Shown: positions 28,244 through 32,260 of the stretch, piece after piece
Position numbering within the stretch: the stretch's first letter is position 1
Layout of the letters: the number at the start of each line of letters is the position of its first letter
Assembly (NCBI GenBank): GCA_017461225.1
Contig: JAFTYV010000003.1
Coordinates: 1 to 39,986, forward strand
Direction of reading: 5' to 3'
DNA length: 39,986 bases
Source: Candidatus Methanomethylophilaceae archaeon
GTDB taxonomy: Archaea; Thermoplasmatota; Thermoplasmata; Methanomassiliicoccales; Methanomethylophilaceae
Translations under genes and position numbers: made by a program
Notes under the pieces: generated by a model
Databases searched by the model: none
Told to the model about the DNA's origin: nothing
The model's input: only the letters and a program-made list of their open reading frames with translations

Positions 28244-30291
28244 GGATCACGAGGATCGACGTGGGGGCGTTCGGCGCCATGAGGAGCCGCACGTTCCACA
28301 CGGACCACGGGCTGGTCCTGTTCCACGGACCGAACGAGAGCGGGAAGACGACCGTCATGGAGTTCGTCCGCAACACCCTCGTACCCACCTCCAAGCGCGA
28401 CGTCTACCCGGTCCGCGGCAGGGGCGACCACGGCTCCGTCACGGTCGTCGATGCGGAAGGGGAGCACGTCATCGTCCTCGAGGGGAGGAGGCGCGGCGGG
28501 GACGTCCCCGACGCGGTGTCCGGACTGGACCCCGTCCTGTACAGGTCGGTGTTCGCCCTGAACCAGCGCGATCTGGAGGACGACGGCCCGTTCGCCAGGG
28601 GCGAACTCCGCTCGAGGTCCCTGACCGTCCCGGGAGGGGACGCCGTCCCCGGGGCTATGGAGGCGCTGACGGCCATCGTCGACGCCGAACTGGGCAGGAC
28701 GGCATCGTCGAGGTCCAGGCTGGCGGAGGCCCTCCGCGACCTGGATTCGGTCGAGTCGCGCATAGCCGAGCTCCGTCCGATCGCGGAGTCGTACGGGGAG
28801 GTGTCGGCACGCAGGGACGAGGTGCGGGGGGAGATCGAATCCGCCGAGTCCGAGCTGCGTTCGGCCGCCGAATCCAGGAGGATGGGCGAACTCGCCGAGT
28901 CCAACGCCGGCAACTACAGCAGGCTGGAGGAGCTCGAGGGGGAGCTGTCGTCCATGGGCGTGTTCAGGAGGGTCCATCAGGGCGACATCGACCTGCACGC
29001 CGGGCTGAGGGAGGCCGTCGGTGCGGCCAGGGCTGCCTTGGACGCGGTGGAGTCCGAGAGGGACAGGTGCCGCAGGACCATGGGCGGTGTCGACGAGAGG
29101 GCCGTCAGGTCCTCGGCTCCGGCCATGACGTCCCTCCTCGACAGGTACCCCGCGTACATGGCGGGGGCATCCGGAGCGGACGTCCGCGGTGGCACGCCGG
29201 TCATGGTGCTGGCGGGACTGCTGCTCGCAGCGGCCGGTGCCGTCGGATCGACCGCGACCCCCTACGCACTGGTCGCATCGGCGGCGGGTGTGGTCCTCGC
29301 GGTGGTGGGTCTCGTCCGCAGGCGGAGGGCGGGGCGCCGGAGACCCGGTCGGGACGGCGCCTACGAGGGCGAGGTCGCCTCGGTCATGGCGTCACTCGGG
29401 CTGCAGCCCACCTCCGTCCCCGCCGACATAAGGCGGATGGGGGACCTGTTGTCCGCCCAGAGGGCGCTCTCCGCATCCGAACCCTCATGGATGAGGTGCA
29501 GGTCCGGTGTGGTGGCCGCCGAGGAGGACATGCGCCGCTTCTACCAGCCCTACGGGGGAGAGCGGGGATACGCCGCGAGCATCGAACTCACGGAGAGGGC
29601 CATCCGCATCGAGTCCGAGATCGGGTCGATACGCGGGGCGCTCTCCCGCTCCGGCCTCGACCCGGATGCGGATCCGCGCACCGTCATGTCCGGGGACGTG
29701 GACGACGGACGCCTCAGGGAGCTCGTCGCCGAACTGGGCAGGTTGGAGGAGAGGATGTCGGCGATGATGGACACCGGGGAGCTGGACTCGCTGCTGGACC
29801 GCAGGTCCGCTCTCAGGGGCGAGGTGCTGGAGACCGTCAGGAGGGGGTCGACGGCCGTCTTGGCCCTGCACATAGCCGACCGGGCGTGCGGCGAGGAGTT
29901 CGGCGGCACGAGGTCGTCGGTCCTGTCCGCGGCCGACCGCTACCTGTCGATGATGACGGGCGGCGAGCACCGCATCGACATGGACCCCCTCGGCGAGGAG
30001 GTCTCCGTGGTGTCCGGGGGACGCGTCCGCGGACCGAGGGAGTGGAGCACGGGGCTCCGTGCCCAGGTGATGCTCTCGGTGAAGCTCGCCCTGGCCAGGG
30101 AGATGGGCGGGGGAGAGGTACCCGTGATACTCGACGACGTCCTGCTCCCGTTCGACAGGGTCAGGATGGAGGGTGCCTGCAGGGCACTGGTTGAGGCGTC
30201 CCGCGAGATGCAGCTCCTGGTCTTCACATGCGACGACAGGGTCGTCGGCATGCTGGGCGGGATGGACGGGGTCGGAACGGTAGAACTGTGA
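28240..30291 (+). CDS. Rad50/YhaN-like SMC-type ATPase with internal membrane hairpin (683 aa)
   Basis: Partner of the Mre11-like nuclease. The N-terminus MRITRIDVGAFG leads to Walker A GPNESGKTT (30-38), of the YhaN rather than Rad50 type. Coiled-coil helices (about 150-290) follow, then two hydrophobic segments at about 319-357 (VMVLAGLLLAAAGAVG and YALVASAAGVVLAVVGLV) ended by RRRRAGRRRPGR. A return coiled coil comes next, then a signature-like WSTGLRAQVMLSVKLALA (from 602) and Walker B VPVILDD (627-633). No CxxC zinc hook is present, and the protein is shorter than Rad50 (about 880 residues). The hairpin would place the coil tip in the membrane, as proposed for bacterial YhaN. The start at 28240 overlaps the nuclease stop. 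Confidence 0.88.
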   Translation: MRITRIDVGAFGAMRSRTFHTDHGLVLFHGPNESGKTTVMEFVRNTLVPTSKRDVYPVRGRGDHGSVTVVDAEGEHVIVLEGRRRGGDVPDAVSGLDPVLYRSVFALNQRDLEDDGPFARGELRSRSLTVPGGDAVPGAMEALTAIVDAELGRTASSRSRLAEALRDLDSVESRIAELRPIAESYGEVSARRDEVRGEIESAESELRSAAESRRMGELAESNAGNYSRLEELEGELSSMGVFRRVHQGDIDLHAGLREAVGAARAALDAVESERDRCRRTMGGVDERAVRSSAPAMTSLLDRYPAYMAGASGADVRGGTPVMVLAGLLLAAAGAVGSTATPYALVASAAGVVLAVVGLVRRRRAGRRRPGRDGAYEGEVASVMASLGLQPTSVPADIRRMGDLLSAQRALSASEPSWMRCRSGVVAAEEDMRRFYQPYGGERGYAASIELTERAIRIESEIGSIRGALSRSGLDPDADPRTVMSGDVDDGRLRELVAELGRLEERMSAMMDTGELDSLLDRRSALRGEVLETVRRGSTAVLALHIADRACGEEFGGTRSSVLSAADRYLSMMTGGEHRIDMDPLGEEVSVVSGGRVRGPREWSTGLRAQVMLSVKLALAREMGGGEVPVILDDVLLPFDRVRMEGACRALVEASREMQLLVFTCDDRVVGMLGGMDGVGTVEL

Positions 30292-30312
30292 CAGGAACCC
30301 CTCCAGGCCCGC

Positions 30313-30324
30313 ATATATTTATAA
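30313..30324 (+). promoter_or_regulatory. Strong TATA element of the dnaG transcription unit
   Basis: ATATATTTATAA, one of the most AT-rich stretches in the window. Expected start near 30345, about 230 nt before the dnaG ATG, unusually far for this genome. Confidence 0.6.
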
Positions 30325-30344
30325 ACAATGTATAACATTCAGGC

Positions 30345-30574
30345 AGTAAGGGAATGCGCTAATCCATCCCTGTTCACAATCACATCACGATCACACCCGT
30401 CCACAGATGGACGACGACCGGTAGGTACGGGCAACGGAGCGACCGTCCCGATCAGAGCAGAACCGAACCGGTGTAACAAGTAGGAAGTTGCACGGGCCCG
30501 GGGGGTCCCGGAGTGCAACGGGAAGCGGAGCAGGTACGGTTGGGCGGTTCCCTCCACCCTTCAGGAGGGTTCAC
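30345..30574 (+). ncRNA. Structured dnaG leader or independent small RNA (candidate)
   Basis: No open frame with coding character fills this stretch. Paired elements include CGTCCA/TGGACG around 30400-30416, ACCGG/CCGGT further on, and a long hairpin with perfect GTTGCAC/GTGCAAC arms near 30486-30526 whose inner stem is CCGGG/CCCGG. The last hairpin hides the ribosome site of dnaG. It may be a regulatory leader or a stable RNA processed from it. I could not match it to tRNA, SRP RNA or RNase P RNA, although a short GTGTAAC run recalls the SRP Alu domain. Confidence 0.4.
30550..30569 (+). promoter_or_regulatory. Hairpin that sequesters the dnaG ribosome binding site
   Basis: CCCTCC (30550-30555) pairs perfectly with GGAGGG (30564-30569), which is the Shine-Dalgarno sequence 5 nt before the dnaG ATG. 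Such a stem would limit translation unless opened. Confidence 0.55.
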
Positions 30575-32260
30575 ATGAACATCGATCCCAATACAACGAA
30601 ATACATGGTGAAAGCGAAGATCAACGCCGACGGTATCGTCGAGAAGCCCGACGTCGTCGGGGCGATCTTCGGACAGACCGAGGGACTCCTCGGCGACGAA
30701 CTGGACCTCAGGGACCTCCAGAAATCCGGAAGGATCGGCAGGATCGAGGTCGAGGTCACATCCAAGGGCGGCAAGTCCGACGGAATCATCTACATGTCAT
30801 CCAGTCTCGACCAGGTCGAGACCGTCATCCTCGCCTCCGCACTGGAGACCGTCGACCGCGTCGGACCCTGCAAGGCGTCCATCCGCGTCCTCGGCATCGA
30901 GGACGTCCGCATCACCAAGAGGGAGAAGGTCGTCGAGCGTGCCAAGGAACTCCTCAACGAGCTCATCAAGCAGTCCAAGGGATCCAGCTTCGACCTCACC
31001 GACAGTGTCAGGCAGAGCGTCCAGGTCGAGGAGATCACCACCTACGGAAAGGACAGGTGCCCCGCCGGACCCAACGTCAAGGACTCCGAGGCCATCATCA
31101 TCGTCGAGGGCAGGTCCGACGTCCTCAACCTCCTCAAGGCGGGCATCAAGAACGCCATCGCCGTCGAGGGCACGAACGTCCCCAAGACCGTCCAGGACCT
31201 CTCCAGGGAGAGGGTCGCCACCGCATTCGTCGACGGCGACAGGGGAGGGGAACTCATCCTCAGGGAGCTTTTCCAGGTCGCGGAGGTCGACTTCGTCGCC
31301 CGCGCACCCCGTGCGCACGAGGTCGAGGAGCTCACCGCCAAGCAGATCATCAAGTGCCTCCGCAACAAGGTCCCCGGTGATCAGTACATGGAGATGAACG
31401 GACTCGTCGCGGAGGGCAGGTCCTCCGACGACTCCGATTCCGACTCCGACAACGGCCGCGAGGAGAGGCGCGAGCGCAGGGCCAGGGAACGCGAGGAGAG
31501 GCGCGAGCGCAGGGCCAGGGAACGCGAGGAGCGTGAGGAGGCCGAGTCCGAGGACGAGCCCGAGGACAGGAACGAGGAGAGGTCCGAGAGGCAGGACAGG
31601 CGCCGCGACCGCAGGTCCAAGGACCGCGAGGAGAGGCGCGAGCGCAAGGAGCGTTTCAACAACGACGCCATCGACAAGTACAGGAAGAAGCGCGACACCG
31701 AGGAACCCGTCGCCGAGCCCGTCGCCGAGGAGCCCGAGACACGTCTGGCCGAGCACGAGGAACCCGTCGCCGAGGCCCCCGCGGAGCCCGTGACCGAGGA
31801 GGCGCCCGCAGTCGAGGAGAAGGTCGCCGAGCCCGTCGCCGAGGAGAAGACGGTGGAGGAGAAGCCCGTCGTGGAGGCACCCGCAGTCGAGGAGAAGCCC
31901 GTCGAGGTGAAGCCCAAGAAGCCCAGGACGCTCCGCGGCAAGAGGTCCTCCGACAAGGTGCTCACACCCGAGCAGGAGGCGTACCGCGACATGCTGCTCG
32001 ACCTCTCGACCACCCACAACGCGAAGGTCCTCGGTCCCGAGAACGCCGTGCTCAGGCAGGTCGCCGTCAAGAGCCTCGTCAACTCGCTCAAGGAGGACTC
32101 CGAGAACGTCGTCGCCATCGTCTTCGACGGTGTCATCTCCCAGAGGATCCTCGATGTGTCCGCCGACAAGGGCATCAAGCTCGTCATCGGAACCCGCAAG
32201 GGCAACATCTCGAAGATGCCCGCAGACATCACGATCTGGACCAAGGAAGACCTCTACTGA
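30575..32260 (+). CDS. dnaG: Archaeal DnaG-type primase / exosome-associated DnaG (561 aa)
   Basis: Toprim protein of archaea, found with the RNA exosome where it helps poly(A) binding, and with primase activity in some species. MNIDPNTTKYMVKAKINADGIVEKPDVVGAIFGQTEGLLG is the family start. The Toprim core shows IIIVEGRSDVLNLLK with E178 and AFVDGDRGG with D220 and D222, then HEVEELTAKQIIKCL. Residues 283 to about 460 form a long low-complexity insert: Arg/Glu-rich repeats, then Pro-Val-Ala-Glu repeats, before the conserved C-terminal exosome-binding region (EAYRDMLLDLSTTHNAKVLG...). This insert makes it longer than the usual 400-450 residues. It is followed by the Lon-like ATPase 5 nt downstream. 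Confidence 0.94.
   Translation: MNIDPNTTKYMVKAKINADGIVEKPDVVGAIFGQTEGLLGDELDLRDLQKSGRIGRIEVEVTSKGGKSDGIIYMSSSLDQVETVILASALETVDRVGPCKASIRVLGIEDVRITKREKVVERAKELLNELIKQSKGSSFDLTDSVRQSVQVEEITTYGKDRCPAGPNVKDSEAIIIVEGRSDVLNLLKAGIKNAIAVEGTNVPKTVQDLSRERVATAFVDGDRGGELILRELFQVAEVDFVARAPRAHEVEELTAKQIIKCLRNKVPGDQYMEMNGLVAEGRSSDDSDSDSDNGREERRERRAREREERRERRAREREEREEAESEDEPEDRNEERSERQDRRRDRRSKDREERRERKERFNNDAIDKYRKKRDTEEPVAEPVAEEPETRLAEHEEPVAEAPAEPVTEEAPAVEEKVAEPVAEEKTVEEKPVVEAPAVEEKPVEVKPKKPRTLRGKRSSDKVLTPEQEAYRDMLLDLSTTHNAKVLGPENAVLRQVAVKSLVNSLKEDSENVVAIVFDGVISQRILDVSADKGIKLVIGTRKGNISKMPADITIWTKEDLY
31457..31531 (+). repeat. 33-bp tandem duplication in dnaG
   Basis: Two identical 33-bp units (31457-31489 and 31490-31522) start CGCGAGGAGAGGCGCGAGCG and are followed by the first 9 nt of a third. 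They encode repeated Arg/Glu-rich 11-residue blocks (REERRERRARE). Exact identity at DNA level suggests recent duplication. Confidence 0.85.

Follow-up and report, generated by a model that had tools for sequence, protein, structure and literature searches.

A covarying RNA leader upstream of archaeal dnaG and its probable role in control of an exosome gene

Why should the gene of an exosome subunit begin so far behind its promoter? The stretch of DNA analysed here (the window, 39,986 nucleotides) comes from a Candidatus Methanomethylophilaceae archaeon with a genome of 1.5 Mb, in which it forms contig C44; it carries dnaG on the plus strand, and exosome core genes are present in the same genome. 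The original prediction pointed to a strong TATA box far upstream of dnaG and to several stems in the interval between them. The box stands up well. Its exact core TTTATAAA (30318-30325) occurs once in 40 kb, four matches are found there when up to one mismatch is allowed (0.39 expected), and the ATG of dnaG lies at 30575. From the position of the box, the dnaG transcript is predicted to start at about 30346-30349. The interval contains the following elements:

30314..30325, plus strand: TATA box TATATTTATAAA of the dnaG promoter, holding the only exact copy of the core in the window
30346..30574, plus strand: structured 5' leader of the dnaG mRNA, predicted (covariation in relatives; one copy per genome)
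30349..30360, plus strand: 5' strand of helix P1, AGGGAATGCGCT (swap tests; fold prediction)
30369..30375, plus strand: 5' strand of helix P2, CCTGTTC (swap tests; genus covariation; fold prediction)
30374..30395, plus strand: UCAC/UCAU repeat element TCACAATCACATCACGATCACA, largely unpaired (UCAY clustering against shuffles; spacing; unpaired probability)
30398..30413, plus strand: P3 hairpin CGTCCA/TGGACG (96.8% of cells paired in 19 genus leaders)
30417..30472, plus strand: P4 arm (P4b covaries; outer helix predicted)
30428..30450, plus strand: helix P4b, CGGGCAACGGAGCGACCGTCCCG (covariation in the genus)
30487..30519, plus strand: P5, the GTTGCAC/GTGCAAC hairpin with an inner GC stem (recurs in relatives)
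30528..30534, plus strand: 3' strand of P2, GAGCAGG (swap tests; genus covariation; fold prediction)
30543..30553, plus strand: 3' strand of P1, GGCGGTTCCCT, whose end is 9 nt short of the Shine-Dalgarno site (swap tests; fold prediction)
30550..30569, plus strand: possible Shine-Dalgarno hairpin that pairs GGAGGG (30564-30569) with CCCTCC (30550-30555) and overlaps the 3' strand of P1 (predicted)
30563..30569, plus strand: Shine-Dalgarno site AGGAGGG (from sequence)
30575..32260, plus strand: dnaG, DnaG/exosome cap subunit (NF003108 of NCBIfam, 524 bits)

In the encoded protein, a long, charged and repetitive insertion (31420-31960 of the window) with RERE and EEPVAEP repeats separates the conserved N-terminal part from the C-terminal one; its length varies among relatives.

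Covariation of the leader helices

Taken alone, the leader (about 30346-30574) has an ordinary folding energy, z -0.65 against dinucleotide shuffles. One sequence is thus insufficient; single-sequence stability, being non-significant, was dropped as evidence of structure and relatives were compared instead. This comparison confirms, at the level of sequence, that a folded RNA leader of about 200 bases is a real element in front of dnaG. The original prediction had staked its case on conservation of the stems in relatives, and the helices are indeed kept there through covariation. The stems it had listed, GTTGCAC/GTGCAAC with the inner GC stem included, are present, accompanied by P1, P2, P3 and P4b.

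The closing helix, P1, joins the predicted start of the transcript to a strand lying directly 5' of the Shine-Dalgarno site, and P2 joins CCTGTTC to GAGCAGG. RNAalifold on a MAFFT alignment missed both P1 and P2 owing to the variable spacing of their strands. We therefore used alignment-free swap tests, in which duplex energies of native strand pairs are compared with those of pairs exchanged between genomes. With shared descent only partly corrected, and with clustering, reversed strands and displaced windows as controls, P1 and P2 together reached -26.1 kcal/mol in native against -18.9 kcal/mol in swapped combinations of 50 dissimilar leaders of the order (z -13). Reversed strands gave z -1.8; for windows displaced upstream, z was -2.5 at a shift of 260 nt and close to 0 at greater distances. 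Tested separately, P2 is clear in the home family and in other families, while P1 is weak in the home family (z -1.9) and clear in other families (z -3.9). In the rest of the phylum, where P1 was sought only in leaders with a T run, 62 dissimilar leaders yielded z -13.9 (reversed control -2.6, complement control -2.1). The strands of P1 are wholly different in sequence across the phylum; for example, CGGAAAAAGGTA pairs with TACCTTTTTCC in locus L247, AGAAAAATAGCACA with GGTGCTATTTTTCA in L299 and ATTGAAAATAGTC with GGACTATTTTCAG in L135.

The position of P1 is also informative. Its first base lies a median of 24 nt past the TATA centre in 69 leaders of the order and 27 nt past it in other classes, and archaeal transcripts usually start at about that distance. 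The closing helix would thus tie the 5' end of the transcript to the base in front of the ribosome site. Furthermore, the first bases of the P1 5' strand can pair locally with 30367-30371, and this competing 5' hairpin covaries as well (z -6.3), which makes two states of the leader plausible. Another alternative, formed by two hairpins with the 3' strand of P2 paired to the 3' strand of P1, found no support (z 0.27).

Inside the closing helices, P2, P3 and P4b were followed in 19 leaders of the genus: 91% of their cells are paired and 16 cells are changed on both sides, with two-sided changes at three pairs of P3. Their covariation score was reached by none of 500 shuffles, and sliding the partners by 1-3 columns lowers pairing to 35-49%. 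A possible outer helix of P4 (ACCGGT at 30417-30422 with ACCGGT at 30467-30472) appears in the prediction only if the arm is folded by itself. The P5 strands GTTGCAC (30487-30493) and GTGCAAC (30513-30519) enclose the inner GC stem in a fold of their own stretch in isolation, while in the minimum fold of the whole leader GTTGCAC pairs with GTGTAAC (30471-30477) instead. Several relatives have the P5 hairpin in the corresponding position but built from different bases; in L005, for example, it is CGTACC/GGTACG. As a general feature, the Shine-Dalgarno hairpin was rejected, being weak in the family (z -1.8) and unsupported in other families.

Leaders with enough sequence reveal a plan shared by the order. 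From 5' to 3', a TATA box is followed by a purine-rich 5' strand, a local strand like CCTGTTC and a stretch rich in UCAC/UCAU; variable hairpins then precede GAGCAGG or its equivalent, a pyrimidine-rich strand, the Shine-Dalgarno site and the start codon. Among 38 representatives the predicted folds are in agreement in the majority of cases, though not in all, and the interior is strongly variable. A leader peptide was also considered and provisionally set aside, as upstream ATGs stand at differing places in ten relatives.

Linkage to dnaG and the UCAC/UCAU repeats

Among relatives as far out as the order, dnaG was located in 79 of 80; the gene was likewise located in 145 of 150 genomes of the class and in 92 of 97 of the phylum sample. 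Upstream DNA was examined for a large part of these genes. The leader is single-copy in the genome of the window. A covariance model built from the genus alignment (19 leaders) finds exactly one match in each of 26 out of 50 genomes, all from the home genus, and in 25 of these the match lies directly upstream of dnaG. Five genomes outside the model are among those matched (G001, G010, G018, G025 and G029; E 2.6e-9 to 2.4e-4). At that threshold the model picks up no leader from the order's other families, where recognition was through position and pairing. The closing helix and the UCAC/UCAU row recur over much of the archaeal phylum.

Several observations accompany this distribution. The remaining model match (L319; G017:C29:7593-7795, E 9e-29) lies in a genome that is 66% complete and in which a protein search did not find dnaG. 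In other families, tRNA genes occur near dnaG (L060:958-1062, L052:251-354, L095:3-89 and L101:779-865): what lies upstream of dnaG varies, but the leader is retained. A dnaG leader is short or practically missing in L141-L146, L152, L157, L158, L161, L277 and L278, some of these lineages having one small hairpin, such as ATGGTAA/TTATCAT in L144. Such short or missing leaders fit a regulatory rather than an essential part. Archaeal dnaG was not found in plasmid and viral collections, and a scan of a genome collection for dnaG outside the phylum returned only records from the phylum itself among the 80 loci listed.

The second recurring element is the row of UCAY motifs. In its densest 40 nt, a leader of the family has a mean of 3.9 such motifs and a leader from elsewhere in the order 4.3, whereas shuffles have about 1.4; the reverse strand has no excess over shuffles, and the element is absent from displaced windows. 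Leaders from the other families of the class average 2.5 (shuffles 1.3), and 30% of them are individually significant. The commonest spacing of successive UCA triplets is 6 nt, usually with A before and C after, and in 56 of 69 leaders the motifs are less paired than the remaining leader. UCAC also stands upstream of dnaG in three distant members of the phylum (L291, L292 and L297; TTCACGCAGTGTGAATCCGTTCAC, ATCACATTCACTTGG), with no obvious P1. Of the two copies of the spaced repeat in the genome, one is that of the dnaG leader. A regulon sharing it was considered and provisionally set aside, the spaced UCAC/UCAU pattern giving 0-4 matches per genome. By analogy, the repeats resemble multivalent sites of KH-type proteins, which we take as a candidate lead.

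The original prediction also proposed a search against Rfam. Release 15 at the gathering threshold has no match in the window, nor does 30250-30620 give any at E up to 10; on twenty related loci only tRNAs were found, all outside leaders. A tRNA search of the window was negative. Archaeal SRP RNA (RF01857) and RNase P RNA (RF00373) were excluded as identities of the locus, as both reside elsewhere in the genome (C63:590-897 and C1:78744-79037, respectively).

Possible functions of the leader

We suggest that the region is a cis-acting leader of the dnaG mRNA, through whose fold DnaG or the exosome, as candidate reader, adjusts dnaG expression; we hold this reading to be rather probable. Transcription would start probably about 25 nt past the TATA box, so that the first dozen nucleotides may pair with the strand just 5' of the Shine-Dalgarno site. 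P1 would then close the whole leader into a multi-branched fold of P1, P2 and, within them, P3, P4 and P5, which would display the largely unpaired UCAC/UCAU row. An RNA-binding protein, with DnaG or the exosome itself as first candidate, would read this fold and shift the balance between P1 and the 5' hairpin that competes with it; either the accessibility of the ribosome site or the lifetime of the message would change as a result. DnaG is an RNA-binding cap subunit of the exosome, but its known preference is for poly(A), not UCAY (PMC4227792), which counts against it as reader. Because the leader is found on dnaG only and DnaG binds RNA, the control is probably autogenous, by DnaG or the exosome. 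What counts against this path from fold to translation is the Shine-Dalgarno hairpin, which is hardly conserved. The short or missing leaders of several lineages weigh against the reading as well.

The original prediction offered a regulatory leader or an independent stable RNA. Linkage to dnaG favours the former; the latter is less supported. It would be a trans-acting small RNA of about 200 nt with a terminal stem, sharing the dnaG promoter, cut or terminated at the 3' strand of P1, and working with DnaG or the exosome. Like stand-alone RNAs, the leader has its predicted 5' end joined to its far end by a closing helix; many leaders carry a U4-U7 run in the last strand, and the interior is strongly variable. 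Bacterial Y RNA, which works with Rsr and PNPase, has the same combination of a terminal stem joining both ends, a variable interior and a link to an exosome-like nuclease. However, every leader match in a genome where dnaG was located lies upstream of that gene, a Shine-Dalgarno site and start codon follow directly with no second promoter visible in between, and P1 is kept without a U4 run in 19 of 45 family leaders, the window included. The position inside the dnaG promoter unit and the lack of an Rfam match likewise distinguish the leader from Y RNA. We therefore favour the cis-acting leader, on account of its dnaG linkage, its closure by the Shine-Dalgarno site and these 19 leaders, and regard a small RNA as unlikely.

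The same U-runs suggest a transcription attenuator, with the U-rich 3' strand of P1 as a termination site recognised by aCPSF1/FttA and with pairing in P1 or in the competing 5' hairpin deciding between stop and read-through into dnaG. Runs of U4 or longer occur in 26 of the 45 leaders of the family and in 15 of the 24 from elsewhere in the order, the KH domains of aCPSF1 bind terminator U-tracts (PMC8716108), and covariation of the competing hairpin would suit such a choice. But many leaders, that of the window among them, keep the pairing and have no U-tract, which argues against a simple terminator and leaves attenuation distinctly unlikely. Quite improbable, too, is a dual-use RNA that serves as dnaG leader and is also released as a stable exosome-associated small RNA, gating or guiding the exosome via its UCAC/UCAU repeats. 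A riboswitch sensing a small molecule or an RNA thermometer sensing temperature, as the multi-branched junction, whose conserved bases include GGCAACGG and UCAC, and the possible Shine-Dalgarno hairpin might suggest, is very improbable, given that no Rfam class matches, internal arms differ among families unlike a ligand pocket, that hairpin is hardly conserved and dnaG is the sole carrier.

A cis-acting leader of dnaG would have known counterparts. In E. coli the level of PNPase, which in bacteria is the counterpart of the exosome core, is set through RNase III cleavage of the pnp leader, with autoregulation. There, too, a structured leader sits on a gene of an exosome-related 3'-5' nuclease machine, and RNase III cleavage destabilises the mRNA (PMC8708148). 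Gene, organism and fold are unrelated, however: the whole dnaG leader would be closed by the transcript's own beginning, and it is not known to be cut by a nuclease. The autogenous leaders of ribosomal-protein genes in bacteria and archaea resemble it in that a structured leader is confined to a single gene whose product binds RNA, which by analogy suggests feedback; in contrast to them, the dnaG leader has no Rfam match and its feedback is putative. Neither of two surveys covering structured RNAs from bacteria and archaea, one of them on such ribosomal-protein leaders (PMC7247131), mentions dnaG. Binding to dnaG mRNA is not mentioned in the searched text of a Sulfolobus exosome iCLIP paper either, which counts against the proposed control. 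In the openly available literature we found neither a description of a dnaG leader nor any control element of an archaeal exosome gene.

Taken together, the comparative data make the dnaG leader a probable switch, not described before, that controls a gene of the RNA-degrading exosome. Archaea have few known structured leaders. One that is kept over much of a phylum, on one gene only, would be a direct handle on how the level of DnaG is set, and this can be tested on the strands of P1, on the 5' hairpin that competes with it and on the UCAY repeats.
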